Positions 3,815 to 52,669 of a stretch of 64,000 nt of DNA are shown here, one piece after another. The position numbers and the translations under genes are program-made. Position 1 is the first letter of the stretch. Each line of letters starts with the position of its first letter. This stretch comes from Parelaphostrongylus tenuis (Eukaryota; Nematoda; Chromadorea; Rhabditida; Metastrongylidae): contig JAHQIW010000364.1 of NCBI GenBank assembly GCA_019055375.1, positions 1-64,000 of the forward strand, written 5' to 3'. A model generated the notes under the pieces. That model was given only the letters and a program-made list of their open reading frames with translations, ran no database searches and had not been told where the DNA came from.

Positions 3815-3850
<36 letters not shown>
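3797..3850. repeat. (TA)n microsatellite
   Basis: An interrupted TA dinucleotide run that stops exactly where the RTE fragment's reading frame begins. The LINE fragment therefore seems truncated at, or joined to, this microsatellite. Confidence 0.9.
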
Positions 3851-3853
<3 letters not shown>

Positions 3854-4552
3854 GAACGGATGGGTTTCTAATGCCCCATTCACGCTCAACGGAACGACAA
3901 TTTCCGAATGCTCCAGTTACATCTATCTAGGTCGTGAAATCAACATGATGAACGACCTAGCCCCAGAGTTGAGCAGGAGTAAACGAGCGGCTTGGGGAAC
4001 GTTTAAGAGCATCGAAGATGTAGTGAAGAGGACAAAGAACGTCCGACTCCGTGCCCACCTTTTCGACTCGACAATTATCCCTGCCCTAACGTATGCAGCA
4101 GAAACCTGGTCGCTACGTAAGCAGGATGAAAGATCACTTGCCGTTATCGAACGCGCAGTCGAAAGGTCGATGCTAGGAGTATCTCGTATTTCGCAAATGA
4201 GACAAAGGATCCGAACTTCGACCTACGTCAACGATCGAAAATCAGAGACGCCGTTCTACACGCCAGGATATCGAAAATAAGGTGGGCCGGACACGTGATG
4301 CGCTTCAACGACAACCGATGGACGAGAGCCGTTACCGACTGGATTCCTCGGGACGTCAAGCGCTCTAAAGGAAGACCACTGACCCGTTGGTCCGATTTCT
4401 TCACGAAAGCGATGGAAGAAAGATATGATGCTCAGCGAATTCCTAGAGCAAGGAGGACCCACTGGGCTACTCTTGCACGCGATAGGGAAAAATGGAAGAG
4501 TTGCTGGTACCCGCTCGAGTCACTCGACGATCAACGGGACGACAGGTGATAT
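3846..4552 (+). mobile_element. RTE-type LINE, 3' fragment (end of reverse transcriptase ORF)
   Basis: The translation matches the C-terminal part of nematode RTE-clade reverse transcriptases: YLGREINMMNDLAPELSRSK, then ALTYAAETWSL, then after a frameshift near 4230-4255 RWAGHVMRFNDNRWTRAVTDW and THWATLARDREKW, with a stop at 4547-4549. The same block recurs at about 33.8-34.45 kb (+) and 36.05-36.9 kb (-). The endonuclease and the catalytic RT motifs are absent, and the 5' edge abuts a TA microsatellite. With one frameshift it is a dead fragment. Confidence 0.9.
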
Positions 4553-12479: not shown

Positions 12480-12765
12480 ATTATCCACGATCTTCTGCTA
12501 GCGATTTGCAAGCCTCCGGATTTGTTTGAAATACCGTTCCTTGGGTTTTAAATCAAAAAACTCTTGACATCCTTCTTCAACATGATCAAATGCCTCGAAT
12601 CGTCGCCCATGCAGGAAATGTTCTATTGAGCGAAAAAGACCATAATCGGATGGCGCAGAATCTGGACGGTAGGCTTTGTGCGGCATGACCTCGACTCCCT
12701 CCAATTCATAAAACTTCTTCGCAACTTTTCTGTTATATCCACTCTCTCTCAGGTTTTGAGTAAAA
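12480..12765 (-). mobile_element. mariner-family transposase, C-terminal remnant
   Basis: The minus-strand frame includes RPDSAPSDYGLF, the mariner signature around the last catalytic acidic residue (family form YSPDLAPSDYHLF), and then HFLHGRRFEAFDHVEE, matching the family's LxGRRFxSxEEV region. The N-terminal DNA-binding domain, the other catalytic residues and the terminal inverted repeats were not found nearby, so this is a truncated dead copy. Confidence 0.85.
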
Positions 12766-12959
12766 CGTATTTTTCGCCTCTGTAAAACGTTTTGATAGTC
12801 ACTTGATAGCTTAACTTAAGTAAAATTGAATTGCTGTTTATTTTTGGCTTATTTTTGGCGCTGTACAGCAGAACTGAAAATTTGCTTTACGTTCAAGGAT
12901 TTCTCGCCTGATGGACCTTTTCATTATTAAATTTTGATCGTTGAATGGGGAAATATTAG

Positions 12960-17659: not shown

Positions 17660-18225
17660 CGACGCTAGAGCAATAAACACCCAATTTACTAATCAGAAAT
17701 AACTTAAACTGCATGATTTTGGCATTGTTCAATTGCGTATTTTCCTGGGAACACTTTGGCATACAAGTTCCCTATACTTGCTATAATGTGGAACTATTCT
17801 GGACACAAAATAGTTTGCTAATCATGCACGGTTTGGCAAGTAGGAGAAAATGCTGGTGAAGCGGCATCCAAATTTAATGGAGTTTCCTGTTGACGGCTCG
17901 AGCGAAGGCCAATCCTTCCGAATGTTTTGTCCAGCTTTGAACTTTGTGAACCACTTCTCAGCTGTTCTTTCTGTTACAGTGTCATCGCCCAGAGTTCTGC
18001 TAATCTTGCGCAGCGCTTCACTAGCATTCTCCCCTACGCGCCATCGTGCATGTGTAGCAAGCTAATTTGTTACCAAGAGGACTCTATCTTGAAACTACCA
18101 TGGAAATATTGTATACCACAATGCTTGCAAGCAATTTAGTAATTGAACAATGCCAAAATCCTACAATTTTATTCATTTCTGGTCAAAAAATTTTGTGTTT
18201 ATTGATCTAGTGCCAAAACTCAAGT
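17660..18225. mobile_element. Foldback/MITE-like element, copy 1
   Basis: The left end has CTAGAGCAATAAACAC and the right end has its near-complement GTGTTTATTGATCTAG. Further in, ATTTTGGCATTGTTCAATT on the left pairs with AATTGAACAATGCCAAAAT on the right, so the arms form a long inverted repeat. A related copy lies at 20175-20706 and a diverged one at about 50150-50430. There is no coding capacity, so if it is a DNA transposon it is non-autonomous. Confidence 0.75.
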
Positions 18226-19062: not shown

Positions 19063-21478
19063 TTCATCCGGACTCTCTCTGAGATAGAATTCAGTAGACA
19101 CAAATTTTATTATTCTCGGTATCAATCAGTAAACTGGCGTTTTCTCGGTGAGCAAGCAAGGGTTTTCAAACTCAGTATCATTTCAAGAGAGTTAACGCTC
19201 TGGGAGATTTCGACTTCTTCAGTGCCGGCAATAGAAAGCAACGAGCCAAAGAGACGAGCGTTTTCTAAATATGTTCACACATTTTCAGTCTTATGTAGGC
19301 ATTATGAGGCTGGCCTCCATCAATAGATGGGAAATACAAATAAAGGCAAATGATCTGAAGAAGCTATTTTTTATACGACAAGACTTTAGGCTCCAGGTTT
19401 ACGTTATCTGCCACGATTATTGAACCACTTAACTGAATAGGATGAGTATCATATTGCATTAACTTCGTTTATTCTCCAAACGAGCAAAATTTACTTGAAC
19501 TATAAACTTGATAATCACATTTCTGATGTGAACCGGTTGTTGTAGATAAAAGTATACTTTAGAATCAACTACTTTGAAATGCCCTTGAAAACGTTCTTAG
19601 TCGTTTTTCGAAATCTAGTTACAAATTCGTCTCTGACATCAATCCGGCAGGCACGTGGACTTCGGCAGTTTGCCATGACTAGCCGCTTCTCGGCCACTCG
19701 CCCGCTATCATGGAAATTGAGCCCCGAAGAAAATGGTAAATTGTCGTGAGAAAAATCATGCTCAACACATAGATTCGATGCCTTGTGGTTGGTATGAGCA
19801 ACATGATACCTTCCTTGCGGCTGCTTATTGAAACCTCGACAAAAACATTCATATCTAGTCTTTGAGAGCACTTTCAGCCGTCTAGCCGTCTCTTGACGTC
19901 AGTTTACCAATCTTCTGCGATCAGTCCCCATGTTAGAGGGGCGAGTGGCTGAGTAACGGCACTGATGATGACGAAATCGCTGAAATTCGTGCTTGCTGAA
20001 TTGTCGCTTGCCTGCTGAATTGTCGCCATGGCTGAAACACCACATCTCGAAAAGACGTCTAGAAACATTCTCAAGGGCTATGTATAAATGTTTTTGTTTC
20101 AGTAAACAGTCGATTAAATAAGTTATCATCTTGAACTGCATAGTGACCACGATGATGATCGCTTGTTCCTTAATTTCAGCACTAGAGCAATAAACACCAA
20201 TCTATTGATCAGGAACAAATAAAATTGCATGATTTGAGCATTGTTCAGTTGCGCGTTTTTTTGTGAACAGTTTGGTATACAACTAGCTAAATGACGGAGC
20301 TATTTTGGGAACATGTGCTTGCTACTCATGCACTAACGGCGCGTACGGAAAAATGTTGGTGAAGCGACGCGCAAGACTGGCCCTTCCTGTAGAAGGCCCG
20401 AACACGATTGCTCCTCCAGACTGATCTCTCCAGTTTCAGCCTTCGCTAACCACTTCTCAGTCGTCCTTTCTGTGACTGTTATATTTCGTCAGGCCCCATT
20501 ATCTTGCTCGTCACTTCACTAGTATATTTCCCAACGCGCCATTCGCGCATGAATAGAAAGCGACTTTGTTCCCAAAGCAGCTCCATCTTAAAGCGAATTG
20601 CATATTACAGTGTTCGTAAAAAACGCGCAACTGAACGATACCAAAATCGTGCAATTTCAATCACTTCTGGTCTATTGTTCTAATGCCAAAACATATGAAA
20701 CGACCTAATAGAATCGCTATCGACATCTCTTAAGAATCTAAATATTTGAAAAAGTTTATCACATTTATTTTATCAGTCGTCTACTCCGTTTATTATAATT
20801 ATCTCATAGCCATTATTCATTTTTCTCACTTCTCAATTCTGTCTTCCACTTTCATGTCCAGAAACTTATCGATATCAGCTGTGTAAGAGGCCGAATCAGT
20901 GTGAACTTAAACAAAGCAGATTGTCTTTACTTTAACTACCGTATTCCATGAAAATTTTTCATTAGTGAACAGCAGCACTCCATGCAAAAAGTGATCGCTA
21001 CTCACGCAGGCATTTACACATGTTCCAATGAGCTTCGCGGACCGTAAGTTTTGTTTTGCCATTGTTTAACTCACCAGTTTCCTAACTTTTAATCAATATT
21101 TGTATCAATTTCCCTTTGTTTATATCATTTGGTAGTGACAAACAACTAAAGGCTTCACATTATCAAGTTTGTCTGATGCAAAATTATACCGCCTTCAAAG
21201 CTTGTTGCTCGTCTACACTATTCTGGCACTCTATGGAAGAGGTTTGTCTACTTTGACGTCTGTCTATCACTAACACTGCGCACCTACATTAGTGGAATAC
21301 TGTCTACCTGTGTGAGCTCCATATAAAAACAAATCACCGATGTCTTTATAAGCGGGGCTCAGAAGAAGAAGCGACCACTTGTGTGCCACAGTGCACCTCT
21401 AACCGCAGTGTTCCACATGCGGACGGCAGCGTATGCACCAATAAGCCCATGGAGAATGAAGAGTGCCTTTCTCACTGA
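19063..21478 (+). CDS. Candidate secreted/surface gene with Ig-like and Cys-rich exons (3' part, plus strand)
   Basis: I do not recognise the family with certainty. The best supported exons are 20966-21043, 21136-21241 and 21293-21478. Their phases agree (2 then 0), acceptors are TTTTTCATTAG, TTTGGTAG and CTACATTAG, donors are GTAAGT and GTTTGT, and the last intron is only 51 bp. The first encodes HAGIYTCSNEL, which resembles the Ig-domain strand-F signature (DxGxYxC). The last is rich in cysteine; its end (C-x6-P-x3-G-x2-C-x9-C) resembles the second half of a thrombospondin type 1 repeat, followed by TGA at 21476-21478. Two weaker upstream exons, 19063-19147 (with a VNW that could be Ig strand C) and 20862-20922, also join in phase. 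No signal peptide or start was found. Codon changes between the two copies show no clear purifying selection, so it may already be a pseudogene. Confidence 0.4.
20175..20706. mobile_element. Foldback/MITE-like element, copy 2
   Basis: Same family as 17660-18225: the left end begins CACTAGAGCAATAAACACC and the right end carries GGTCTATTGTTCTAATGCC. The inner arms ATTTGAGCATTGTTCAGTT and CAACTGAACGATACCAAAA are complementary with mismatches. It sits in copy 1 of the tandem duplication and has no equivalent at the matching place in copy 2. Confidence 0.7.
20826..20906 (-). pseudogene. Degenerate duplicate of the last S1 peptidase exon
   Basis: It aligns to the functional terminal exon at 24848-24937. 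The acceptor has changed from TTCAG/GTT to TTTAAGTT, which removes the CAG. Hydrophobic positions are replaced by Ser (VHTDSASYTADIDKF against VHTDLAFYTADIDEF in the working copy) and a TGG has become TGA, shortening the tail. No other peptidase exons are present in copy 1, so this is a relic of the duplication. A use as an alternative 3' exon is possible but unlikely. Confidence 0.8.
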
Positions 21479-21721
21479 ACAGTACTATTCTATCCGAGGA
21501 GCGAATCATATTTCTGTCGCAAACGATTAGTATGTTTCAGCGATAGATCGTCCCCAGAAGAGGCAATTTTTAAGAATAGGATGATGTAAATGATAAGGTT
21601 CTTGATATGATTTCTGATTCTTTCGAATATTTCTCATTGCTTGCGGACGAAGACATTCTCTATGCTGTGGCTTCACGACTCTTCCATGGAATGAATCTGA
21701 AAGTACTTTGGCCAATCACAT

Positions 21722-22016
21722 ATGATAAAAATACCAGCCAATGGAGTGTACAACACTCTGTGTTAGGCGAAAATTTCACTTGACATAGAGTGTAAAACGT
21801 TCGTCTTCGATGACTCTCTATAAGGAGTGGAAGGCTCCCAAGAGAACTGACTATGACAAGAACGAAAGACGACAGGTTCTGCCCGGCTGACGAGTCTGTA
21901 AGGACGAAACACGTGTATCGGGCTGTACAAGAGCCCTTACCATCACATGACAAGTTGGCTCAAATAATAATGGAAGGATCTGTTGAAATTTGAGCGTGGT
22001 CTAAACAACGCTAGAA
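21722..22016 (+). mobile_element. Hammerhead-ribozyme repeat, copy A
   Basis: It runs from AAAATACCAGCC to about AACGCTAGAAATAAAGGG and matches the 320-bp unit seen at 24221-24540 in reverse. It begins exactly where the similarity between the two tandem-duplication blocks ends. It carries a hammerhead motif (21881-21923) with an intact core. No reading frame is present. Confidence 0.75.
21881..21923 (+). ncRNA. Type I hammerhead ribozyme, core intact (copy A)
   Basis: In order: GCCCGG (stem I), CUGACGA (conserved CUGANGA core), GUC-loop-GAC (stem II with loop UGUAAG), GAAA, a short ACACGUGU stem III, the cleavage triplet GUA, then UCGGGC, which pairs with GCCCGG over six positions (one G-U). 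Cleavage is predicted between 21917 and 21918. The layout is that of schistosome-type minimal hammerheads with a very weak stem III. Confidence 0.85.
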
Positions 22017-22129
22017 ATAAAGGGAAAATAAGATTGATTCACACACGCGAGCATGAGCATTTCGGCTATTCTACGGTGTGGGGCACGCTACAATTGATTG
22101 AGTCCTGACGTGTAAGAGATGTGGGGTAC

Positions 22130-22430: not shown

Positions 22431-23075
22431 TTTGCCATTCTCTAACATATAAGAACCAAAACTTTTTCCGTTAAAGTACACCAAGTAGGTTTCTTTAGAA
22501 ACCAAGCATATCGCTGATTCTCCGTAAACTCAAGCTTATAAGAAATTACCTGAATTCGTGATGAAAAAAGTTTTGTTCAGTGAAAAATTTTCTGAAAAAT
22601 CAGAGATAAAAATGGCTCATCATTGTCCACAAAGGAAATAAAGATTGGAATTACTGCATCCACGAACATGACAGTGTTTGTACGGCTTCTCTAACCACTG
22701 ATTCCTGTTTAAAAACGGCATGTGCATATTATCTATGCTGTACATTATACATTATGCATCTATTGCCTGTGTTTGTAAGTTTTAGATAGTTTATCATGCT
22801 TCTATATGATATAAAACTCCGCAGACACAGTTTCTGTTATTTTTGGCATCAATCAGTAATCTGGTGTTTTCTCGTTGAGCAAACAGTAGTCTTAAAACAC
22901 AGCAATTTTTAAGCAGAATATACCTTTTGGAAGATTTCTGCTTTTCCAGGTCCTGTAGTGAACGGCAAGACAAAAACGAGTGCTTGCTAGTCAACTTAAC
23001 ACAATTCCTCACTTACGTAAGTCTTGTGCTGTTTGCCTGTATCAACAAATGGAAAATACAAATAAAGGTAAATGA

Positions 23076-23422
23076 TCCTTTCATTATTATTTGAGCCAAC
23101 ATGTTATGTGGTCTGGTAAGGGCTCTTGTACAGCCCGAGACACGTGTTTCGTCCTTACAGACCCATCAGCCGGGCGGAACCCGTCGTCTGTCGATCTTCT
23201 CATAGTCAGTTCTCTCGGGAGCGTTAAACTCCTTATAGAGAGTTGTCGACGACGTACGTTTCACACTCTATGTGAGGCGAAATTTTCACCTAACACAGAG
23301 TGTTTTCGCACTCGATTGCTAGCTGGCTGGTATTTTTATCATATTATACCTTTCCTTCGAGTCAAATAATAATGAAAGGATCTATTGAAATTTGAGCGTG
23401 GTCTTAATAAAGCATTCGAAGG
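23076..23422 (-). mobile_element. Hammerhead-ribozyme repeat composite, copy B, with 12-bp TSD
   Basis: The insert is bounded by the direct repeat AAAGGTAAATGA at 23064-23075 and 23423-23434. Copy 1 of the duplication has a single AAAGGCAAATGA at the corresponding position, like an unoccupied site. The insert consists of one minus-orientation unit joined to a short inverted piece (about 23360-23422), so its outer parts are complementary (CCTTTCATTATTATTTGAG against CTCAAATAATAATGAAAGG without the shared C). No ORF. Confidence 0.8.
23133..23175 (-). ncRNA. Hammerhead ribozyme, core mutated (copy B)
   Basis: On the minus strand the order is GCCCGG, CUGAUGG, GUC-loop-GAC, GAAA, ACACGUGU, GUC, UCGGGC. 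Stem I is intact but the last base of CUGAUGA is G instead of A, a position where the catalytic core is normally invariant. It is predicted to be inactive or severely impaired. Confidence 0.75.
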
Positions 23423-23884
23423 AAAGGTAAATGAGATAAAGAGGAAACTGATGAGATAAAAACCTAGGCTTTAAGTTTTTGTAATCCGCCACGATTATGA
23501 AAGTACTTAGCTGATTGGTATGAGTGTCAAATTGACATTCCTGTTGACTTAGTTTGCTCAACTCTAAAGGAGCGAAATTTATTTGGACGATAAACATGGA
23601 TTTTTGATGCGAACTGATTCTCTCAGATATATAGACACTTTTCAATCAACTGCTTTGAAATGTCTTTGCGAATGTTTTTAGCCGTCTTTTTAAGATTTAG
23701 ATACAAATTCATCTGTGGCAACAATTCTGCAGATATACCGGTTTGGGTGACTTTGCCATCATCACCTTTTTTCTCTTCCACGTCTCCTTATCATAAGGAT
23801 TGAGCGCAAGAAAAAATGGTAAATTGTCGTCAGGGAAAAATGATGCCTAGTAGTCAACCTAGAATCGAGCCCTGTGGTTGGAAT

Positions 23885-24165
23885 GAGCGACATGATAAAG
23901 GATAAAAGGATAAAGCTCTCGGCGTTGATCAATCCCTAAGGGATGCGCCATGCATTCGACTTCAATTTTTAACTTCGTTTGAGGTGATTGAATGCACATC
24001 TGGCCTTTACAATGACTCGCGGTGGCCTCCCGCTGAACCGAGTCAGTGCTACTTATCCTCCCAGACAAGTCTGAGACCTGTCTGGTACCAATTCACCGAC
24101 TCCGGAGGGATGGATGGCTTGGAGAGCCATGAGCGCGAGACCGAACCAGATCGAATAGAAATATT
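23885..24165 (-). mobile_element. SINE-A (tRNA-headed, about 300 bp), reverse copy
   Basis: It matches in reverse the full copy at 28325-28630, including the TTTATCCTTTATCAT tail, GCGTTGATCAATCCC, and the GGCCTCCCGCTGAACCGAG and GTCTGGTACCAATTCACCG blocks. The tRNA-like head is largely lost. It is inserted within copy 2 of the tandem duplication. Confidence 0.75.
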
Positions 24166-24200: not shown

Positions 24201-24214
24201 AATGTTACATTTAT
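24201..24214. repeat. Target-site duplication, left (14 bp)
   Basis: AATGTTACATTTAT, repeated exactly at 24786-24799 on the other side of the hammerhead composite. The right copy continues into sequence shared with copy 1 of the tandem duplication, which confirms that the composite is the inserted part. Confidence 0.85.
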
Positions 24215-24319
24215 ACCTTTCCTTCGAGTGCTTTATTAAGACCACGCTCAAATTTCAATAGATCCTTTCATTATTATTCGAGCCAACATGTCATGTGGTC
24301 TGGTAAAGGCTCTTGTACA

Positions 24320-24362
24320 GCCCGAGACACGTGTTTCGTCCTTACAGACTCATTAGCCGGGC
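24320..24362 (-). ncRNA. Hammerhead ribozyme, core mutated (copy C)
   Basis: Identical layout to copy D, but the core reads CUAAUGA instead of CUGAUGA, replacing the invariant G5 by A. Stems I, II and III and the GUC cleavage triplet are intact. Predicted inactive. Confidence 0.8.
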
Positions 24363-24682
24363 GGAGCCCGTCGTCTGTCAATCTTCTCATAGTCAGTTCT
24401 CTCGGGAGCGTCACACTCCTTATATATAGTTATCGACGACCTACGCTTTACACTCTTTGTCAGGTGAAACATTCACCTAACACTGAGTGTTTTCGCACTC
24501 GATTGCTAGCTGGCTGGTATTTTTAACATATTATACCTTTCCTTCGAGTGCTTTATTAAGACCACGCTCAAATTTCAATAGATCCTTTCATTATTATTTG
24601 AGCCAACATGTCATGTGGAGTATAAGGAGTGTGACGTTCCCGAGAGAACTGACTATGAAAAGATCGACAGACGACGGGTTCC

Positions 24683-24725
24683 GCCCGGCTGATGAGTCTG
24701 TAAGGACGAAACACGTGTCTCGGGC
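24683..24725 (+). ncRNA. Type I hammerhead ribozyme, consensus core (copy D)
   Basis: GCCCGG at 24683-24688, CUGAUGA at 24689-24695, stem II GUC/GAC closed by UGUAAG (24696-24707), GAAA at 24708-24711, stem III region ACACGUGU, cleavage triplet GUC at 24717-24719, and UCGGGC at 24720-24725 pairing with the first six bases. All conserved core bases are present. Cleavage is predicted after 24719. Stem III can form only about two pairs within one molecule, but its eight-base palindrome would allow a stable dimeric ribozyme. Confidence 0.9.
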
Positions 24726-24785
24726 TGTACAAGAGCCTTTACCAGACCACATGACATGTTGGCTCAAATAATAATGAAAGGATCT

Positions 24786-24799
24786 AATGTTACATTTAT
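24786..24799. repeat. Target-site duplication, right (14 bp)
   Basis: Exact match to 24201-24214; see the entry there. Confidence 0.85.
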
Positions 24800-24847
24800 T
24801 CTGCCAGTCGTCTACTTCGTTTATTATCATTACTTCTTGGCTATTCA

Positions 24848-24937
24848 TCATTGCTCCCACTTCTCCTTTCTGTCCTCCACTTTCATGTCCAGAAACTCAT
24901 CGATATCGGCTGTGTAAAAGGCCAAATCAGTGTGAAC
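24848..24937 (-). CDS. S1 peptidase exon: C-terminal helix and stop
   Basis: Acceptor TTTGTTCAG, then VHTDLAFYTADIDEF and a charged tail to TGA (24848-24850). VxTDLxFYxxDID is the usual end of nematode S1 domains, where the final helix packs on the barrel. Phase 0 start fits the previous exon's GC donor. A degenerate duplicate lies at 20826-20906. Confidence 0.9.
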   Translation of the reverse strand, partial: VHTDLAFYTADIDEFLDMKVEDRKEKWEQ

Positions 24938-27900
24938 CTGAACAAAGCAAGTTGTCTTTACTTTAATTACCGTATTCCATGAAAATTTTTCATTAGTGTG
25001 CAGCAGCACTCCATTCAAAAATTGAACGCCACTCATGCAGGCATTTACTCATGTTACAATGAGTTTTGCGGACCGTAAGTTTTGTTTTGCCATTGTTTAA
25101 CTGACCAGTTTCCTAACTTTTAATCAATATTTGTATCAATTCTCCTTTGTTTATATCATTTGGTAGTGTCAAACAACTAAAGGCTTCACATTATCAAGTT
25201 TGTCTGATAAAAATTATACCGCCTTCAAAGCTTGTTGCTCGTCTACACTATTCTGACACTGTATGGAAGAGGTTTGTCTACTTTGACGTCTGTCTGTCAC
25301 TACCACAGCGCACCTAGATTAGTGGAATATTGTCCACCTGTGTGAGCTCCATATAAAAAACAAATCACCGATGTCTTTATAAGCGGGACTCAGTAGAAGA
25401 AGCGACCACTTGTGTGCCACAGTGCACCTCTAACCGCAGTGTTCCACATGCGGACGGCAGCGTATGCACCAATAAGCCCATGGAGAATGAAGAGTGCCTT
25501 TCTCACTGAACAGTACTATTCTATCCGAGGAGCGAATCATATTTCTGTCGCAAACGATTAGTATGTTTCAGCGATAGATCGTCCCCAGAAGAGGCAATTT
25601 TTAAGAATAGGATGATGTAAATGATAAGGTTCTTGATATGATTTGTGATTCTTTTGAATGATTTTCGTTCTTGAGAACGAAGACATTCTCTATGCTGCGG
25701 CTTCAAGAACGATAATTCACACAAATATGCGAGCAGCTATTTGATTCGAACAATTTCTTCTTTCATGGAATAAATGTAGAATTACTTCGGCGAATGACAT
25801 CAATAGATAAGCAGGTTTTAAAGTGATCCTTATCATACTCTAGCACTCTCAGCCATCTGTCCGACAAGTGTACTACGATCCCGTCTGACAAAAATTTTTT
25901 ACAGACCACTCAACGTTATTGGGCTTATTGTAACATCATACCACCGCAATAGGTGGTCAAATAGAATGAATGCTGATCCCAACTTTATCGTATGACTTCA
26001 CTTACCGCAAAAACTTTGTCATTCTTTCTGATAAAAGTAAAAAAATTTAGCCAGATGGCCGTCAATACTGTGCTCAGTGTTTAAAAACGTTTTTTGCAAG
26101 TGAACAAACTTCTTGAAAAGGTGGTTGTGATTTCCTCAACAATCAAGCACCTCTTACCGTACATGAAATCTCACCTTTTTTCTCGCCTTTCTTACTCCGA
26201 AAGACATCAGCACAGAACAGTTGCATGTGCTCATTTGGAAGTCAGACTTATCAGTTAAAGGTGAAGCTGGTGAATAAGTACTTGCCTGAGCTGCAGCACT
26301 AGAACCCATTATCAGATCACTGCATGACGATCCGAACGAGACAAGACCTACGAGATAGTGCTTTCCGTCTAACGACGTCGTAATACCGCCTCCGCTGTCA
26401 CCCTTAACATGCTGTACACTTGTTCACGAGAATTTATGATGACGCAAAGAATTAAAAGAAAACGAAGAGCGGGTGAATTTTTCATCAACACAATGTTACT
26501 GAGTTCAGTGTGTCCATGTACTAGAGACTAAGTGGGCAATTTTCAACGATTCAAGGAAGTGTCTCGCTCAACATTCACAAACTCGCCTGAGCATGTAATT
26601 AAACGGATGAAAGGATAAAGCTTTCGGCGACGGTCAATCCATGAAGAATGGTCATACATTTGTCTACAGTTTTTAGCCTTATTCGTAGTGGTTGAAAGCT
26701 TAGCTGGCCTTCACAATGACTTCGGTGGTCTACTGATCTATCGAGTCGGTGCTGCTTATCATCCCAGACAAGTCTGGTACCAGTTTAAAAGCTGCGTAGA
26801 GGTGGACGGCTTGATGAACCAAAAGCGCGATATCGAACTATTGACCTTATGTGCGGCGTCAAGCACTTCTATCACTGCGCTACTTGCGCTCCCATTATAT
26901 AATATGCTATTGGAAACATATTCAACATTCATTAAAATACAAACGAAGGGAAAAAATGTGTTGTTTTACACAGGAAGGACGACTTACTTCCGATAGATAT
27001 ACTTCACGTGAAAATAGTAACTTATTTGCATTGAAGCTAAAGTGTAAAGCCCTTAGCACTATCTTTGCCATGGAGAATTTTATGAGAATATTACACTTCT
27101 TCAGGGACCTTTAATAGCGTTTGATTCACTAACGAAATGCATGCTTTGTATGCTTTTATGATTCACTAACATTTTTTTGGTTCCAGAACAATGTCCTTTC
27201 AGTTGCCATTTTCTTTCTGCCGAAAGATTTCTTTCCAGAGAATTTTAAAATCATTCTGAGGCTTTAACAATAACTCAAATTATGATTGGAAGAATTTTTT
27301 CGTGAGTAGGAGTTATATAATCTTAAGACGATCGTTTCTACGCTGAACATGTAAACGCATTTGTGCGCAGAGTAATCCTAAGGACTCACTCCTTTAGGAA
27401 TTTGAGGTAACGGTGAATACCAATGATCGGGGTCTTTATGTTTAGTCAAAGAAGGTTATCTCATTCTTCAAGGTTAAATGACACAGTGACAAGCGAATGG
27501 GTGTCGAAATATTATAAAAAATTCACGTTAGGTCAAGTGCTCAAGCAAAGAAAAATTCTTCATGCTTCTTGGAGCAGTGACCACGAACTTGTTACACAGG
27601 TTTTTTGTCATCTGCCGATAACATAGGCCTGATGCTTGTCTGGCTTCGTCGATCTTTGTTCCTCTCATCTAAATGACCGACAAGACAGAACTAACTGTGA
27701 TGATATGGCAACCGGATCGAAAATCAAAAACTAGATGAAAGCTCAATAAAATTGTTAAAGTGTGAAAGAGACGTCTTCGTGGTAATATCCTCCAGCCTTA
27801 AGTCAGAATGTGAGACTTTTCGACTAGTGATTAGACCTATTCAGAAGAAATAGACGATATGCTTAGGGTCCCGAAATATCTATTTGCTTATTTATGACAT

Positions 27901-30900
27901 TGCTTTATTATAAAAAATCGTTTCTAAATATATACATATAAATCTACATGCAAATGTTTGCCATAATGGAAAGACAATGGAAAGTTGCCTTTGTCGCAGC
28001 GACTCACAAAATGTTGTATAACATGTTACTGGAAACCTCAAGCTACGCGAGAATGACTTACATGGCAAACATTTCTTTCCGACCGTTCAAACGTGCAGAA
28101 TGTGTCGGGTTGCCGGTTTTCCACGTCCTTAATGCATTCCTCCTCAGTCATTTTCACTCCTAAATAATTTTATATAGTTGTCAAATCCAAGAATTCGCAT
28201 ATTAGATTCACTACTTCTTTTTTTTCACAATTTGGATAGTAATGCGAGTAGAACGCAAAGTTTTCAGTTTAGCCCTCTAGCACTGAAGGATCATAAATTC
28301 ATTGCTCGTATAATTATGTGAAAAACGCGTGTGGCGCAGTGGTTAGAGGTGCTCTGAGTCGCACACGAGGTCAATGGCTCGAACTCGTGCTCATGGCTCA
28401 CTAAGCTTCCATCTCTCCGGGGTCGGTAAATTGGTACCAGACTGGTGTTATACTTGTCTGGGAGGATAAGCAGCACCTACTCTGTTCAGCGGGAGGCCAT
28501 CGCGAGTGATTGTAAAGGCCAGATAGAATTCAATCACCTGAAACGAAGGTAAAAATTAAAGACGAATGCATGGCGCATCCCTCAGGAGCTGATCAACGCC
28601 GAGAGCTTTATCCTTTTATCCTTTATCATTATGTGACACTTCCTTCAAGACTATGTGAGAGGTTCAGCGTGGAAAAAGCAGCCATGTATATAACGAAGGC
28701 AAATTGAAAGGAAGAGCTCTACGTCAATTATATATCAGATTGACTCACAAGATTCGTATGCACATATTATTCATATTCATCCATATTTATACAGCTTTCT
28801 TAAATGTATACAGGTTGTATCGGGTGAGTCAATTAGGTCTCCATGCAAAGATGTGATTGGAAGTTATAAGAGGATATTTGAGATTGCCTTTGGAGACTAA
28901 AGAGTTCTACCCTTTTATATGTTTGAGGGGAATGAGACGGGAAGAGCTGAGGACCGTGTGAAATGTATATAAAACTTTTTAGTAAATAGAGTTGGATAGT
29001 TGTCTACGACAGCCTTGGTTTGAGAATGAGGAGCTTTGCTGATGTGATCTAGAGTTTCATCTAATTTGCGAGAGTTCAGTTGAAGCAAGTGACTTTTGAG
29101 CACCGAAGATGTTAACGCTGCATACTAGGTATAATGTTCAAAACAAACTTTCCAAGGAGAGTGTGGTATTAAGCAGATTATGCATGTTCTATACTAGTAT
29201 TGTGGTTATATTTGCTTGCAAATCAAATCAAAGATGTAGATTTCGACACACCTAGCTCCACTTTTTGAAGAAACGGTGTAGAAGTCTCCAACATGCCCTT
29301 CAGTGCTGAAAAGCGTCATTGTAAAATATAATAGATGTGACGGAAATATTCGTAACGCATTACACTTAATATAAACTCTTTTTCTGAGCTGACTACTAAC
29401 TTGGGCAAGTGACTAACTTTGCGATTTACAAATGTTTTTCATCTATTACCTATATTAACATATAAACAAAATTTGTTAGAAACATTGAGAACGTATCGCT
29501 TACGATCAGCCCCATATCCAGACGAGACCAGTCTAACGTAAGAATCAAAGAGTTCGTCAGTGTCGTGAAGATGTGGCAGGCAAATGTGGTGAATGCCGTC
29601 GGGAACCGGTTCTGCTAATTTCAAAAACGCTATATCCTTAGTGCCAGAGCAACCCTTCTCGAAGAACATTGAGTACAATGCGCTGAAAAATTCCTTTCAT
29701 AATGAGTAGCCTTTTGTTTTCTCCTATGTTGCCCTTCCCTTTGATGCTCATTTTTCTTGAGATGGAGGAAAATGTGAGGGAGAGAGGCGTTACAGCCGAG
29801 TGGTTGTGACCTTGGAGCTCGTTGGAGCTCGTGTGTGGCCAAACCCCATCCCGAACACTGCAGCAGTCATCAACGAACACCCTAGGAAACGCTAATCAGG
29901 CTATCGTTGCGATTTCAAAGACACGTGCTCAACCAGTGTTCAGTGTTCAACTCACCAATAAAGTGCCTTAAACTGAGCAAAATTTGCACATTATATCTAG
30001 TGAATAATAGTAATATTTACAACAAACTGTTCTGAAAGTGGAGTGTGAATTTGAGGGTTACTGAAGACAAAGGGAAGTACCCGGATGATTGGGAAATACA
30101 GAAAATAAATATTTTTCGTGGGTCGATCAATCCAGGGTGAAACGGATGCAATTTGAATAAAAACCAGCATAATAACGAAGCCTTTGGAATATTCTCTATT
30201 CCTACAATATCTCATGTATCCTACGCTATAACTACATGAAATTTTAGTACAGGAAGCCGTGTTCCTTGTTGGTTACGATTTCCACGGAATGTTTCATACA
30301 TTTGTATCACTCGTCAACATGAATGCACTACCTCCTTTTGCCGTCATCTTTGAATTTTCTCTGTAACTTTATTTCTTTTAAACTTTCCTTTTTGCTGGAG
30401 TGTGGGCACCTTTGAGTTGGCTCAATCGGTGTTCTTACGGTCTACAGCACCATCTTGACTCTTGCAGTCATTATGTTTTTGCATATAATCGCATTGTACT
30501 ATTCGATGGTTTTCATCACCATGAAAGATTCAACCCATGTGGGAGATTTGCTCTGTAGCAACAACGAAAGTGTAATGTGGCCAGTATTGCGAAGCGAGCA
30601 CTCTGTCTTGCTCTAGATGGCTTCTCAGCACTGTCAATTTCCAATAGTTACTTATTTCATATGAACGCAACTCAAACGATAACGAACCTCCACTATGCCA
30701 CATAGTGGGGATGATTTCAAAGCATGATTCACTATCGTAGCAAGAGAAACTCGGAACCTCAGGGCGTGAAATTTCGAAAAAATTTGGATTAATTTCTTGG
30801 ATCTCACTGTGAACTTGAAGCAGGAATGCTCTGTTGTCACCCGTGATATGGCGCAATATATAGGATTGCTATTTTGATGTGAGAGGTGCAATAGCCGTCC

Positions 30901-33900
30901 ATGTGATCTCTGTAAGGTACTCTCCACTTGGACAAATTAGTAGATAACTCATAAAATGCAGTGAGTATGCGAAAAAATTGTTTTGCGCTTTGTGCGATTG
31001 AATTCTATTTGATCATATTTCTGTTCAAATAATGGAGGTGTTTTTGGCTAAATTTTTGCCAACCTGCTCTTACCAGGCTCTGAAGAGGGCAAAGCCTCCA
31101 AAACGTCGACTGTTCGGAACAGCTGCATTATAAGGACATCGTATTTGGTTTAGAAATGAAATCAGTAAAGTTAGCTGACTTGAAAAACAGTACTTCTCTA
31201 AACTAGGTGACCTTTTTTAGTGGATCAGTCTAACTGCAATATCAGCTTTTTGAGCTTAATAGTCAGTACTGTGAACACAATTTTTCATCCCGTAAATCTG
31301 TCTCTCTAGTAAGCCCTATTCACAAATGAACTTTCCGGCTGCTTTCCGTTTGGCAAACGAATTCGTCAACAACTGATTCACTCTAGCACCGCGCAGTCGC
31401 AAACGCTACTGAGTTTTGAATGACGTCGTTCGAAGAAGTGATTTCTAGTAAGAACGTCTCACAAATCCTCTATGAAAACAACATTCTCAAATTTGGCACA
31501 AATCATATCTATTAGTCTCGTATTAACGTTCGTTGAAAACATTGACCTTTCTATGTTAATCCACTTGCCCAACTGGTCTGTGGTACAGTTGAAGTCCTTG
31601 TCAACTCGCTGACAAACTCCTCCCACTGATACTTTCATTTTCCTTCGTACTTCTTCAATTTCATACATGTCCATAGTGCTGCAATACGGTTGCAATCATT
31701 GCACTCACTGCCAGTTCTGTCCACCAGTTTTTTTTTTCAGATCAATTATTCAATAAATCCATAAGATTCCCAACTTAGTTTTTGATTTCAGCATGAGGCT
31801 TTGAAGAGATATATCTAAGATTCGAGTAGAAATATTTTGATCGATAAATGAAGCATCAGACTTTACATTTTTGACAACTTGAAACAGCTCTGTTTAATCT
31901 AATCGTAATAAACTCTGGAGTGCCGGAAGCGTTTAAGCTGTTAGAGGTTTCTATTTGGTTCTTCTATATTACTTATGCAAAAAGTGCCGAAGTGGTTGAA
32001 GAATAAAAGTCGGGAAGTAAGAAGTTCAAAGAGTTTTGTGATAAGGGAAAGCTTCGTGGCCTGAAAGATCCAATTTCTGTAGCGTTGACTACGCGACGAG
32101 TAGATGCTGCGCGTTATTGTGTTGGAGGATTGTTGGCTCTTCAACTGACCAATGAAAAAAAACATTCGTTGAGTTTCTGTTGCAATTCGTCGATTTGGTC
32201 GATCAACTCCTCCGTCCCTATCGAATTCACTCAGTTTGTACACTCGATTGCTCTTTGGCTGGTATTTTTTAACATATTATACCTTTATTTCCTCTCTTTT
32301 TGAGGGATCCCGCCCGGTTAGTCGCGAGGGCACGTGGCGCGTCCCCAGGTGGTGGATAGGGGAATAAACGCGAACCCAAAAGCGACCGTGTGCTTCCCAG
32401 AGACGTAGGTGGATTCAGGAGAGAGCAACCCTGCTTTTGCAGCGCCGACTTGACAAAAACTCTATTTCTACGAGTCAAGTCGGCCAAAAGCCTGCAATCA
32501 AGCGGCTGGGAAGTACGTGAGAGGTGTTTAGGAGTCGCCTCCAACAAATAAGCTCCTCCCGCTCCTTCGAGAGAGACTGGCAAGCTACTCGTGAGTACCC
32601 AGCTCCACGTTTAGAGCCTGGCAAGATACACGTTGGGTATCGAAATGCCAAAAACAGTAACAAATATGGGCCTCATTCCCCTGACAGCGAAAGAGCCCCT
32701 GGTACGGCAGCGCCAGGTAGGACGAGTACGGAGAGGCTGCTAAAATCTCAGGGCCGAACTACGCTGCCAAGATAGAAACGGACTAAAATGACGATCTGTA
32801 CCTACAACGCAAGAACCCTTGTTCACCAATCCGCTGTAGAAGATCTATTGATTCAAGCAAGGCGAATAAGGTACGACGTCATTGGCCTGGCTGAGACGAG
32901 AAGGCGCCATCCTTTTCACGCTGTTTGTGACACCGGAGAAGAACTGTTTATTGGTACATGCAATCGCAGAGGTGTCGGCGGCGTTGGCGTCCTCGTCAAA
33001 TCGAATTTGACCGTGAACATTGATTCGTTCGAACAACTAACAACCCGTATCGGACGATTACGGTTGAAACGATGTGGTTCTATGCCGGTTTTGACCATCC
33101 TCGTTGCTTACGCACCAATATCAAGCTATAACGAAGACGAAGTTGAAGTGTTCTATATGAACCTCGAAAATTCTCCAGAGAAGACCATACATTCTTCAAG
33201 GTTATTATTGGAGATTTTAGCGCGAAAATAGGAGGCAGCCATGCGAACAAGGAGGTCCGAAAAGAATTTATTACCATAGATCACATCCACATAATAACAA
33301 GACCCACTGAAGTCTCACTAGAGTACAAAATACCGCTCTTTCTCATTTTCATCGATCCGAAGAAAGCCTTTGATTCAGTGGAAACAGAAACAGCTATAGA
33401 AGCTTTGGATAACCAAGGTGTCCCAGATCGGTGCATAATGACTTCCTGAGCTATAAAAAGACTTCGCGACAAAAATTTCTCCATTCTACAACAATACCAC
33501 CATCGACGTAAGAAGAGGAGTTCGACAAGGCGATACAATTTCACCAAAATTATTCACTGCCACCATCCAAAATGTCATACGAACATTACATTGGGACGAT
33601 ATGGGAGTGAAAATTGACGGTCGACAATTAAACCATCTTCGCTTTGCTGATGACTTCGTCCTCATAATACCAAGCATCAGCCATGCGAAACGAAGGTTGA
33701 CCGATTTCGATAACGCCTGTGGAAAGATTGGTCTTCAACTAAATTTAACGAAAACGATGTTTATGAGAAACGAATGAGTATTGAGTGCACCATTCTCGCA
33801 CAACGAAACGACAATCTTCGAATGCTCCACTTACGTCTATCTAGGTCGTGAAATCAACATGAGGAACGACCTAGCTCCAGAGATGAACAGGAGGAAATGA

Positions 33901-36900
33901 GGGCTCGGGGAAGATTAAGAGCATCGAAGATGTAGTGAAGAGGGCTAAGAACATCCGACTCTGTGCCTACCTTTTCGACTCGACAATTATCCCTGCCCTA
34001 ACGTATGCAGCAGAAACCTGGTCGCTACGTAAGTAGGATGAAAGATCACTTGTCGTCATTAAGCACACAGTCGAAAGGTCAATGGTAGAAGTATCCCGTT
34101 TCTCGCAAATGAGAGAGAGTATCCGAAGTTCCGATCTACTTCAAAAATCGAAGATCAAAGACACCGTTCTACACGCCAGGATATCGAAAATAAGGTAGGC
34201 CGGGCACGTGATGCGCTCCTATGACAACCGATGGACGAGAGCCGCCGTTAGCAACTGGATTCCTCGAGATATCTTGAGCTCTACACGAAGACCATTGACC
34301 CGATGGTCCAATTTCTTTATGAAGGGCATATAAAAAAGATATGATGATCAGCAAATCCTTAGAGCGAGGAGGACTCACTGGGCTACTCTTGCGCGCATTA
34401 CGGAATAATGGAATCGTTGCTGGTATTCGCTCGAGTCACTCGACGATCAACGGGTGATACAGGTGATACCCAAACATCCTCTTCTCACTTTTAGAATTTC
34501 AAATTGCATTTATTTTCGCATGAGAAAATAGTGCGTTAGATGAAATATACGCTATCGTGAAGTAGGGCTCGATACCCTTTGCCAACACCTATACGAAGGC
34601 CACAGGGGACGTTTGGTTCAGCTTTCTTCACAGTGGAAAGGATAATCGTTTCAACAAAAAATTTTTGACGTTCGTAAATAAATCATGTCCTCAAACAACA
34701 GTGAAAAAAATACGTGAGAACGAAACGCAGATTCAAACATCATCTTGGACCAGCTATACATTTCACTGGATGCTAGTGATAATGTTTTGACTACTTGGCG
34801 CTTTCGAGAGGGTGCTAAATAAGAAATAAGCAATAGTTGAAATTCTTATTAGGTGAGATTTGAAGTGGCTAAAACACAGAATAACAGCGAGTTTGTGCCT
34901 CTTCTGTGAGGGAATCGACGTCAAGTAATGTTTATTACTTCAAACTTTTATAAAATTGGATCAGCCGATTCCTTGGGGCTGTACTCCTCTGAGAAGGAAT
35001 CAACACCGAGTAGCGCTCAATACTTTTAACATTTATGAACGTTTATTACTCGGCGTCAATTTCTTTATATAGAAATTTAGCTTCAAGAATCGACTGATCG
35101 GAAGGAGTGTGCTACTGAGGAATCGTTGAGGACAAAGGAAGCGCCTGCCTTGCACTTAGACCTGACAAACGGCTCAAAACGTGTTATCATTATAGAGGAT
35201 AGTTCAACAGTGGCAGATAAAGCTTACGTGCACTCCTTATTGTCTGTGTTCTTCCAGAAGCAGTGAGCAGCTGTGATCACATGGCGCTTGCCGATCAAAG
35301 TTCCTCCACAAACTTTTCCTAAACTCTCCAAATTTGACAATATCTTTTAAAGCCTTGCATACTGTGTTTCATCATTTAAAGCAGACTGGGAAAGCAAAAA
35401 TAAACGGTGCAAAAGTATTTGCAGTGTAGTTACAACCGATCGACAGCCATATGTCAAACGACGGACGCTTTAAAAGCTAGACCAAGTGGTCTACGAAGTT
35501 TTGTCTTATTCTACATAATTGCCAAACCTTCTGCCCAGTGACTATCACTTCTGCAAGCATCTTGGCATCTTCTTACACTAAAAGCACTTCCACAAACAAC
35601 ACGATGCAGAAAATGCTTCCCAAGAATTCAACGCATTGAGGCATCGAATTTTATAACGCAGTAATATTCATATTTATTTTTACTGATGGCTAAAGGCTCA
35701 CTGTAACTGCCTCAATTTTAGTTGATAAAGATGCGTTTGAGCTTAGTTTTGATGGTTTGAAAATACACGACTTTTAATAATTATTTCCGTCCCGAACACA
35801 GTCGCTCAGGGTGAAATCCGCGCGCGGGCTGATAATATCTTTACGTGAGTAAGGAACCTTGTGTTCAACATATCGTATATAGTGGATGCTTTATCTCGAA
35901 TTTAACCGTAGCCTTATAAAGTTGATTACACTTCCACTTCAAATTCATCTTTGATTCGTTCTGTGTGATTCACCATATAACGGTCTGCATAACCGGTTGA
36001 GAGACCACATATCACGATCTCAATAGTTCCATTTTTCTCATTTCATCTGTATCACCTGTCGCCCGTTGATAATTGAGTGACTGCAGCGGACAACAGCAAC
36101 ACTTCCATCTTTTCCTATCGCGTGCAAAAGTAGCCCAGTGGGTCTTCCTCGCTCTAGGGATTCGCTGAGCATCATATCTTTCTGCTATAGCTTTCGTGAA
36201 GAAATCGGATCAGCGGGTCAGCGGGTCAGTGGTCTTCCTTTAGAGCACTTGACGTCCCGAGGAATCCAGTCGGTAACGGCTCTCGTCCATCGGTTGTCCT
36301 CGAAGCGCATCACGTGTCCGGCCCACCTTATTTTCGATATCTTGGAGAGTAGAGCGGCGTCTTTGATCTTCGATCTTTGACTTAGGTCGGAGCTTTGGAT
36401 CCTCTCTCTTATTTGCGAGATTCGCGATACTACTAGCATCGACCCTTCGGCTGCGCATTTAATAACGCCAACTATCTTTTATCCTGCTTACACAACGACC
36501 GGATTTCTATTGCATACTTTAGGACAGGGGTAATCGCCGAGTCGAAAAGGTGGGCATGGAGTCGGATGTCCTTTGTCCTCTTCATTACAACCTCGATGCT
36601 CTTAGACGTTCCCCAGGTCGCTCGTCTGCTCCTGCTCAACTCTGGAGCTACGTCGTTCATCATGTTGATTTCAAGACCTAGATAGGCGTAACTGGAGCAT
36701 TCGGAGATTTTCGTTCCGTTGAGCAAGAATGGAGCATTCAAAACCCATCCGTTTCTCATGAACATCTTTTTCGTTACTTTTTATTGAGAGCCATCCTTTC
36801 CACAGGCTTTGTCGAAATCGGTCAACATTCGCTCTGCTTGGCTGATGCTTAGTGGGATGAAAACGATATCATCAGCGATTTCTCTTTTAATCCCATTAAT

Positions 36901-39900
36901 TGCACCTGACAATTTATGATTATGACTTTCTCTCGTACTCCTTGAGCGCTGTATTGCAAAAAGCTTTACTACCGGTGATGCTTCCCCTTATTTTGGAACA
37001 TCCTTGAAAATCAATCACGGTTCTACATGTGGTGTTTTATATACACACTCCTGCTGTACACTGTTATAATTATTCTATTAGTATTGCTTACCCAAAAGTT
37101 TATATGCTCATATCTGAACTTCGGCAATTTCACTAAGCTACAAATACAAGAAGCTCTTGTATATCTCAAGTCAAGCTAATTTTCAATAGAAATAAAGTCT
37201 GCAGTAATAATAGTAAAAAATTTCCAAAACCATCTAGATTTGTTTAAAAGTTTTGCTTTATTCTCACCGTCACTTGACTTTATCAGCACACTCCACGGCA
37301 TTTCGCCCATCAGCACTCTTTCTCCACCCATTACCTAAACATTAACAAATGACAGACAATAAAGGCACTCTGCGTGTATTCTTACATAGGAAAGGAGTAA
37401 AGGGGAGGGTAGCAAACTGAGCGAAGTGAATTATTCTGTCTTGAACGACAAGCATTCTCGGCGCGCTCTCTGCACGCTCGAGTTGAGCTGCAATAATCAC
37501 TGTCTTCTATTTTTCCTTCAGCTTCTGGTTTATGACCTGCTTGCAAATCTATTTTTGTTCCTCCCGCAAACGTCAAAAAGATGTAATTTTTTTCGCAGCA
37601 AGATCCAGCAATCAAAACACCACATATCTATGTATGCTGCTATTTTTAAGCTGAGGAGAGAGACCTGTGGCCGAGTGGCTAATGATGATAGGGACCGGAA
37701 TATTACCACCGCCTCAGCGCTCTCCGGCAATAAATAACAAGCGTCCCACGAAACAGCCAAGTCTGTTTATACTCATAATTGCAACGTGATGCACTCAGCC
37801 AGTATTCTACGCCGTTTAATCAGAAAACAAATCCTCAGTCAAGTGATTAACCGACGAGACGAATCAAATTAAGAAGTATTGGTATCCACATCGTGAAAAA
37901 ATCTGTGATATAAGTCAAATAGAATGGATGTGGTAAAATGATTTTAAAGCAAAATACGATTAATGACTCAATTTTATGCAAACTGCCTTATCGACAAGAA
38001 CTGCGCTGTCGACAAAAGAGAGGTTTGCAGGTGGACTTTTGAATCTACGTACTCAGATTTGGCTACTAGAGGATTATGAGCAAGAATACAACTATATCTC
38101 TGGTATTCATCATCTACGGCACCTTCTTGATATGATTTTTGAAGACTAATCATATCCTTATCAGATTAATTCGTTTTTGAAGGGTCTGTAAGGAGCGGTC
38201 GATAGCAGAGGTATGATTTATTATAAGGGCCGCAAGATAGGCTGAAAGTCACCACAACGCCAAGTAATACCATCAACCGACTTGGGATGATTATTTTTTA
38301 CTCGACGTCGATCCCTTTGGAGGATTATATAGCCCCAAGGGATCGACGGAACCGAGGGATGGTGCTACTGATGAGTCACATTAGGACGAATTAGGCGCTT
38401 ATATAGCACTAGGCCTACCGGCTCAAAACAATTTATACCCTTATCTAATTTTTGATTCAAGGATCAGAAATTTTTCCAGCAAAGCATCAAGTGAGCATAT
38501 GTGACTGTTCGCGATGCATCCTATTACACTTCCTGTCTTTTGGGTCCCTCTACGGTCAACTCAAATATTTCAGACATGAGTAAATGGGGTAAAGTTCTAG
38601 GCGTTGATCAACCCTAGACGGATGTGACATACGTTCGCCTTCAATGTTTAACTTCGTTTGAAGTGACTGTATGCATATCTGGCCTTCACAATGACTGGCG
38701 ATGGCCTCCCGCTGATGAAGAGACACCACTTTGAGGATGCTTATCGTAAAAGATATATGGAGAATAATATCTAAATATTCCAAGTAAAAAACCTTGGAAA
38801 GAATTTCAAATTGTATTACAACTTTTTTCTGAAGATGTGTTCCACACTGCTCACTATTCGACCACTCAGCATTCAGTGTCTATGTAGGTTCGCCCCAGAA
38901 GTGGTCGACTGTGGGAATTGTGGGTCATTTTGGCTTTCCTAAGCTTCCAAGAAGAGATTACTTTCGAAAGCCAGTATTGTTTTGTACAAGTTACACTATG
39001 GGTCCCATTAGGAAAACCTTATAGAGAGATAATCAGCAAGTGGCCAGAAAAGTATCGTCACCGTAATCCTGCTGTACTCATTGATTATCAGTGGGCAGGT
39101 GTTTAGGGAAATGTAAAACTCAGGAATTGAATAATGAGCAAAAATATGACCTCAGGCGGGAATCGAATCCGCGTTTCATCCTATGCGGGGACGCGTGCTC
39201 TACCACTACACCACCGAGGCACATTTTTCTTCAACATCTTTATCTTCATGCTAGCTATCAGCCACCACCCTGGTAGGCTGGTGGCAGATAGTTAACATAA
39301 ACAAAGGGTTGCTGGCTGATAGTTAACATAAAGATGTTGGAGAATGAGCGGGAGGGCAAAAGTGCCTCAGTGGCGTAGTGGTAGAGCACGCGTTCCCGGA
39401 TAGGATGAAAACGCGGATTCGATTCCCGTCTGAAGTCATGTTTTTGCTCACCACTCAATTCTTTGAAGGTAGACATGTAGCGTAATAACATTACGAAAAA
39501 AGCAGTAGAAGTACTAGAAGTTTTGAGTAAAACTCAGGTACAAGAATGTTATCGACTACGCGCTTAGAAAGCCTTTAGAATACTAAATTCACTACTAAAA
39601 TCTCCATGATTCAAGCTATGGGATGACCACTGACAGTCTAGTGGAGAGGCAAATACTGTCAATCTCAGCAGCAAAAAATCTATCTAACGAGAGTGAATTG
39701 TTGACCCCGGCTGACTCATGCGTATAGTTAGATTGTTGTTGGTCGATGCTGATTCCATAGATAATTGGTTGCTCAATAATTCTTGGTAATAGAAATGAAA
39801 AGTCAGGCTTAGCTATATACATCTTATCTAGATTAATACTCTTTAAAGTCAGCATTATGAACTATGTGAAGGCTACTCCGGCTACATACCAAAAATTTCT

Positions 39901-51660: not shown

Positions 51661-51689
51661 TCGCTAAAATTCGACAAGTCGTTCCAGCA

Positions 51690-52500: not shown

Positions 52501-52669
52501 TTAAATTATCATTCAGAAGCTTGAATCTCTGGCAAGCGTCCCTTTCAGCAGTTAGTTCAAACACCCTTTTATAATGCTGTAAAATCCATAAAATTATGTT
52601 TCACACGACCACCTGCCTCATTTTATCTAGCTTATTTTGCTAGACAAAACTTCCTCCTTAGAGGGCCGA

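Follow-up and report, generated by a model that had tools for sequence, protein, structure and literature searches.

A hammerhead-bearing repeat of the nematode Parelaphostrongylus tenuis as a non-autonomous retrozyme probably mobilised by Penelope machinery

A stretch of 64,000 nucleotides from the genome of Parelaphostrongylus tenuis (Rhabditida, Strongyloidea), hereafter called the window, contains at positions 24683-24725 a sequence that had been predicted, from its letters, to be a type I hammerhead ribozyme lying in a dispersed repeat. The locus raises the question of whether this ribozyme is genuine, what kind of element carries it, and by which enzyme that element is copied. Penelope-like elements were proposed in 2020 as the driver that copies animal retrozymes, on the grounds that hammerheads and tandem arrangement are common to both and that the two are found together (PMC7229834), and this proposal becomes testable here.

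Judged by sequence, the element at 24683-24725 is a genuine type I hammerhead. Stem I, the CUGAUGA core, the GUC/GAC stem II, GAAA and the GUC triplet are each found where the original prediction placed them, with the expected order and spacing (Table 1). The type I assignment is confirmed by the Rfam covariance model RF00163, for which this site is the sole report in the whole window at the gathering threshold (34.9 bits against a gathering score of 34; E 5.5e-5), and by a strict type I descriptor demanding all six stem I pairs, which matched at 24683 and 21881 in the window and in none of 400 dinucleotide-preserving shuffled windows searched on both strands. A chance motif is ruled out by this score together with the empty shuffles. 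Below the gathering score, the model reports three further matches of 30.4, 29.4 and 27.2 bits; all four are copies of one repeat, and thus do not represent independent events. The one at 21881-21923 had been announced as a second full-core copy: it does retain the full core and is found by the strict descriptor, but its cleavage triplet is GUA and not GUC.

In copies A to D, an outer helix (GGYUC/GAGCC) extends stem I on the far side of an internal loop; U-G and GUAA close stem II, and stem III is the palindrome ACACGUGU. In an alignment of seven copies, 88.5% of the hammerhead cells pair, versus 20-48% when the partner is slid, and in 500 shuffles of these seven rows the observed pairing percentage was reached once and the covariation score twice; three pairs are changed on both sides, a number equalled in 56 of the 500 shuffles and in two slid versions. 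A 41-nt hairpin of the repeat behaves similarly in six copies, with 81.4% of cells pairing versus 30-45% when slid and five pairs changed on both sides; this number of pairs is attained in 49 of 500 shuffles, and the covariation score in two of 500. Both structures were read from the same sequences, which biases these comparisons in their favour over the slid versions. By nearest-neighbour energies, which ignore the tertiary core, the monomeric ribozyme fold of copies A to D is predicted at -13.7 to -16.1 kcal/mol against -20.0 to -21.2 kcal/mol for the best fold, and is thus 5.1-7.1 kcal/mol less stable; closing stem III as a hairpin is predicted to cost 0.6-0.8 kcal/mol, while self-pairing of the palindrome would yield -10.3. 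The best predicted fold of copy D retains ribozyme stems I and II. The poor monomer fold and the self-pairing palindrome suggest a dimeric ribozyme, and according to these models self-cleaving activity is more likely in the dimer than in the monomer.

The ribozyme is part of a unit of 320 bp, numbered here from the first base 3' of the ribozyme cut, with a GC of 0.43 (computed on a unit with a wrong 4-letter junction) and containing a TATA-like box at 222, the hairpin at 156-196 and the type I hammerhead. The longest open stretch is 51 codons in sense and 119 in antisense, the latter exceeding one unit length (for example at 23076-23366, plus strand); no protein relatives of the open antisense frame were found, and the unit contains no ORF combining reverse transcriptase and GIY-YIG domains. 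The first 84 bases of arm C recur at its end with 98.8% identity and a period of 320, so that this arm makes 1.27 laps of the unit, running from 28 to 320 and on to 111, and its head-to-head partner, arm A, runs from 222 to 320 and on to 66. The arms of insertion B end at unit 63-65 and 105-111, as read by hand. For copy D and the pair E/F, no exact target duplication of at least 7 bp was found. In 3000 random placements of the boundaries, chance duplications of at least 8 bp arose in 1.1%, of at least 10 bp in 0.1% and of at least 12 bp in none. A profile of seven window copies has its best window matches at 21720-22015, 23071-23348, 24224-24535, 24619-24788, 51041-51302, 51387-51666 and 52214-52504, these being the same seven copies from which it was built. 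We also note that 919 bp are directly repeated at 93% identity, the first copy (20761-21678) ending near copy D and the second (24792-25708) starting at the right border of insertion A/C.

Table 1. Positions of the hammerheads, hairpins and insertions of the 320-bp repeat in the window
Feature	Position	Strand	Details
Type I hammerhead ribozyme, copy A	24683-24725	+	RF00163, 34.9 bits; predicted cut after 24719
Copy A, stem I	24683-24688 pairing with 24720-24725	+	Letters read directly
Copy A, CUGAUGA	24689-24695	+	Letters read directly
Copy A, stem II and GAA	24708-24710 (GAA)	+	Stem II GUC/GAC
Copy A, stem III	24711-24718	+	ACACGUGU
Copy A, C17	24719	+	Predicted cut directly 3' of it
Hammerhead of copy D	21881-21923	+	30.4 bits; full core, triplet GUA not GUC
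Hammerhead of insertion B	23133-23175	-	29.4 bits; CUGAUGG, A-to-G at last core letter
Hammerhead of arm C	24320-24362	-	27.2 bits; CUAAUGA, G-to-A within CUGAUGA
Two-armed insertion A/C	24215-24785		Arm C (minus) 24215-24618, head to head with arm A (plus) 24621-24785
Insertion A/C, left target-site duplication	24201-24214		AATGTTACATTTAT
Insertion A/C, right target-site duplication	24786-24799		AATGTTACATTTAT
Insertion B	23076-23422		Minus arm 23076-23362, head-to-head plus arm 23363-23422
Insertion B, 12-bp target duplication	23064-23075 and 23423-23434		AAAGGTAAATGA; end ambiguous through microhomology
Copy D	21720-22030	+	One lap, unit 115 to 117
Head-to-head pair E (minus)/F (plus)	51041-51670		Diverged, hammerheads decayed
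Copy G	52213-52495	-	Diverged; 8-bp target duplication TAGTGTTA at 52205-52212 and 52496-52503
Short fragment of the 320-bp family	32234-32286	-	
41-nt hairpin (imperfect palindrome), unit 156-196, arm C	24450-24490	-	
41-nt hairpin, further copy	23263-23303	-	
41-nt hairpin, further copy	21753-21793	+	

The 320-bp unit was used to search the assembly (481,506,261 bases in 5105 contigs), and among the 101 matches obtained by scoring the best 40 of 2517 first-look candidates there are, besides the window copy, at least 40 that are near full length and 96-97% identical to the unit. These many closely similar copies without coding capacity bear out the view that the hammerhead resides in a dispersed non-coding retroelement of a nematode. 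We fetched 30 loci, of which L037 is a second match of the L032 insertion and L059 mirrors L058 and has its target duplication, leaving 28 that include the window's own (L031) as well as L050 and L051, which have letters in common with an earlier locus but differ in their duplications. A target duplication of 11-16 bp flanks 20 of the 28 insertions, with an AT content of 0.75 versus 0.61 for the window, and 18 of these 20 are two-armed and head to head, the other two (L053 and L057) being single-armed. In 14 of the 18, one arm ends at unit 49-66 and the other at 108-120, with no insertion having both ends at one site, and the arm ends centre about 61 and 111 nt past the ribozyme cut; the other four (L038, L047, L049 and L056) have one end elsewhere. 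None of the five two-armed loci lacking a duplication of at least 11 bp fits this twin-end pattern: L032 is one base off (71 and 110), one end is out of place in each of L036, L040 and L055, and in L054 the two ends both fall at the second site (107 and 114). The limits of the end sites were set after seeing the data, so the probabilities computed from them are purely descriptive, and the query ended at unit 111, which favoured arms reaching 111 but neither their stopping there nor the position of the other end. A fixed 5' end at unit 62, apparent in the list of matches, was gone after mapping. In IMG/VR, a search with one exact hammerhead pattern returned no relatives.

Inverted copies that adjoin each other could also be the hallmark of a DNA transposon with inverted repeats (MITE). 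We give this explanation practically no weight, as the two arms of a pair are unequal in length and begin at different points, some copies have a single arm, the target duplications vary from 8 to 16 bp, and arms exceed one lap.

A second retrozyme family offers a comparison within the same genome. In a genome-wide hammerhead search, with 74 of 119,811 candidates scored and 20 of 69 matches over the cut-off, the best 30 hammerheads (L001-L030) all lie in this family, which has a 285-bp unit and a ribozyme stem II of GUCC...GGAC, and which reaches 3.36 tandem units at L016:626-1580 (sense). Once L004 and L006 (which match L003 and L005 in their ends or place), eight single-arm loci and the three-piece L029 are set aside, 13 of the 19 two-armed loci combine an end at 31-58 with one at 90-118, the exceptions being L002, L003, L013, L019, L025 and L030; these loci were picked by their ribozyme and not by their ends, and the end limits were again set post hoc. 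A candidate duplication of 11-15 bp was observed in 10 of the 28 loci that remain without L004 and L006. The ends lie about 47 and 94 nt past the cut, closer to it than in the first family and at a like interval. The two families, of mostly unrelated sequence, have in common a short segment immediately preceding the ends (TTTGAGCG and AAAGCA-TCGA), which in both folds as a GCTCAAA/TTTGAGC hairpin whose loop, placed by eye, contains the first end site.

We then compared these insertions with the abundant Penelope-like elements of the genome, for which the GIY-YIG domain (PF01541) gave at least 150 matches over the cut-off when 150 of 1723 candidates were scored; the comparison covers 32 loci (L061-L092). 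Two of them, L091 and L092, contain open frames (893 and 902 codons) in which both an RVT_1 and a GIY-YIG domain are present. A minimal hammerhead-like motif (CUGAAGA, one extra A before a short stem II, and GAAACGUC) was found in all 32 loci by a search allowing up to four substitutions and one indel each way, with L088 and L089 being neighbours, so that not all loci are independent. Rfam, run on 20 of the 30 loci L061-L090, left the minimal motif unscored and reported one weak hammerhead, in the neighbouring retrozyme copy of L072. The L091 element is two-armed with a 12-bp duplication, and its arms end 67 and 113 nt past the cut of the hammerhead-like motif, or at 59 and 110 if the duplication is taken as the border; the L092 end is at 107 or 103. 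Alignment of 39 copies of the motif with the 5' pseudo-LTR of L092 put the ends of 21 arms at 49-74 and of 10 at 99-113; seven ended elsewhere, some of these belonging to distant lineages, and one continues into the ORF. The nine copies peaking at 52 partly reflect an alignment stop, since the minus arm of L091 ends at 52 in this alignment and at 59-67 when read directly. Thus, Penelope ends at about 50-67 and 103-113 and ends of the 320-bp family at about 61 and 111 lie at like distances from their ribozymes.

Insertion scars left in one genome by two retrozyme families and by Penelope elements can here be compared directly, and they largely agree. Twin arm ends and duplications like those of the resident Penelope elements make the Penelope machinery the most likely agent of mobilisation, and we regard the repeat as a non-autonomous non-LTR retrozyme of a nematode, most likely mobilised in this way, with a probability of roughly four in five. 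This Penelope-type insertion structure, which the original prediction had not seen, is the stronger result. In the mechanism that we propose, the unit RNA, circular or multimeric, would be bound by the Penelope protein, which would introduce nicks 11-16 bp apart in the two strands of an AT-rich target; on each strand, either of two internal sites would serve as the start of reverse transcription, and the two cDNAs would be joined head to head. For Penelope elements, both target strands are described as cut and extended, and the stretch between the two reverse-transcription start sites, the tail, is called unique to these elements (PMC11167929). An inverted pLTR is typical of Penelope inserts, one arm of which may also bear a tail of about 30-40 bp, and the head-to-head inverted arm, the tail on one arm, the variable target duplications, the hammerhead motif before the end sites, the palindrome and the TATA-like box are all features that the repeat has in common with them (PMC3846280, PMC11167929). 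The 320-bp unit differs from Penelope-like elements in having neither reverse transcriptase nor endonuclease, and in that its hammerhead is canonical, not minimal.

Mobilisation by the RTE-type LINE elements of the window is a very improbable alternative. Pieces of such elements are present, with RVT_1 over the Pfam cut-off and an endonuclease that scores below it and has many nematode relatives; the twin end, on the other hand, resembles Penelope copies, and LINE copying is not known to produce regular head-to-head pairs that have two internal ends. No GIY-YIG domain that would mark Penelope remains in the window was found by Pfam in 30 of its 112 stop-free frames of at least 75 codons, and the domains reported in those 30 frames were RVT_1, an endonuclease below the cut-off and a Mos1-type HTH.

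The form of the template bears on the role of the ribozyme. We found 52 recognisable hammerheads around the 28 loci, 43 with an intact core and 38 with the core and all stems, and 32 of the 52, counting the window copy, have the same 43 letters as copy A; the count covers sequences with up to five substitutions from a 25-letter anchor within 1.5 kb on either side, neighbouring copies included, and misses more decayed ones. The arms mostly cover about 0.1-1.5 laps: 34 of 55 exceed one lap, two exceed 1.5 and two reach two, in a sample whose query favoured long arms. None of the 55 starts, at its 5' end, 3 nt or less from the cut site, where about 1.2 would be expected by chance, so that this lack is not significant. 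Taken together with the 34 arms longer than one lap, it gives no hint that a linear cut monomer was copied through to its end, and a linear template ending at the cut site finds no support. That only two arms exceed 1.5 laps leans weakly towards a circle over an uncut multimer, again with the proviso that the sample favoured long arms. In the retrozyme reading, the hammerhead would most likely act as a dimer, cutting multimers into single units that could be circularised by a host ligase. The template might instead be an uncleaved multimeric or read-through transcript, with the hammerhead having no part in transposition, and this we consider less likely than not. The absence of arm 5' ends near the cut, and with it of any sign of run-off copying, would agree with it, as would the report that hammerhead mutants of an anole Penelope element insert normally in vitro (PMC11167929); against it, core and stems are kept in 38 of the 52 recognisable copies, and the scarcity of arms above 1.5 laps is explained at least as well by a circle. 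With its many recent copies, the repeat provides a system for asking what the hammerhead does.

How the retrozymes came to resemble Penelope elements can be viewed in two ways. Rather tentatively, and judging it unlikely as a whole, we suggest that the two families, which have little sequence in common, may live off Penelope by imitating the geometry of its pseudo-LTR, namely a hammerhead followed by two reverse-transcription start sites some 46-50 nt apart, the first in a hairpin loop. The hammerhead may then be partly a recognition handle, through which the Penelope protein would recognise its RNA, besides having a cutting role; this would explain why the minimal motif is kept in all 32 Penelope loci. 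Also improbable, in our view, is that the repeat arose by deletion from a Penelope-like element and is thus a stripped Penelope element by descent and not an independent parasite, in which case the pseudo-LTR of some Penelope family would have the sequence of the unit. The order of parts in the pseudo-LTR (TATA-like box, hairpin, hammerhead, two end sites) is matched by the unit, and a unit-like stretch lies just past the Penelope end at L078, in the same orientation as placed by hand. On the other side, neither the L091 nor the L092 pseudo-LTR matches the 320-bp unit significantly, the latter sharing with it only a possible CA(G/C)TCG motif noticed by eye, and unit matches occur in six of the 30 loci L061-L090, at least some of them apart from the Penelope end and resembling neighbouring retrozyme copies. 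The stretch at L078 (818-1047) may be a neighbouring copy or a related pseudo-LTR.

In its sequence features the repeat agrees with metazoan retrozymes, with partial tandems; what is new is the evidence from insertion ends for the Penelope link proposed in 2020. According to PMC7229834, metazoan non-LTR retrozymes have a type I hammerhead, units of 170-400 bp (here 320 bp), a GC below 45% (here 0.43), no long ORF, target duplications of more than 4 bp (here 11-16 bp in 20 of 28 insertions) and tandem copies (here up to 3.36 units, in the 285-bp family), in contrast to which most inserts of the 320-bp family consist of two head-to-head arms, each covering about 0.1-1.5 laps. The type I repeats of axolotl and newt, as presented in PMC7229834, are similar in their unit of about 330 bp in a weak stem III that ends in a palindrome, and in their probably dimeric action; they differ in being vertebrate tandem satellites for which expression has been shown. 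The Sm-alpha and W elements of schistosomes are likewise repeats of a parasitic worm bearing a hammerhead, but belong to another phylum, and in the available part of PMC8490949 a two-armed insertion is unreported for them. Neither nematod- nor roundworm appears anywhere in PMC7229834, and the open literature searched yielded no account of retrozymes in nematodes; nematode hammerheads may be listed in Cervera 2014 and Lunse 2017, which lie outside this scope. In the one open-literature paper naming both retrozymes and nematodes, the latter appear only for HDV-like ribozymes.

The window contains several other mobile sequences and genes. Three related retrotransposon pieces, at 3848-4551, 33646-34469 and 36049-36876, are mutually 80-87% identical, and we take them to be of the RTE type. 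For the broken endonuclease frame of the retrotransposon, 663 relatives below E 0.001 were found, and among the 120 listed the named organisms are the nematodes Haemonchus, Parelaphostrongylus, Angiostrongylus, Ancylostoma, Necator, Heligmosomoides and Nippostrongylus, presumably all strongylids. The Mos1-type HTH of a mariner-like transposase (PF17906) is encoded at 17825-18061 on the minus strand, and 12501-12815, also minus, resembles another mariner piece by eye, with no Pfam match. Another dispersed repeat family, with copies about 70-88% identical, occupies 23892-24148, 26602-26838, 28375-28629, 38587-38715 and 54376-54579. Finally, with the bacterial code setting, genes for tRNA-Cys (39148-39220) and tRNA-Ser (42878-42951) were predicted on the minus strand, together with a weaker tRNA-like copy at 39364-39437.
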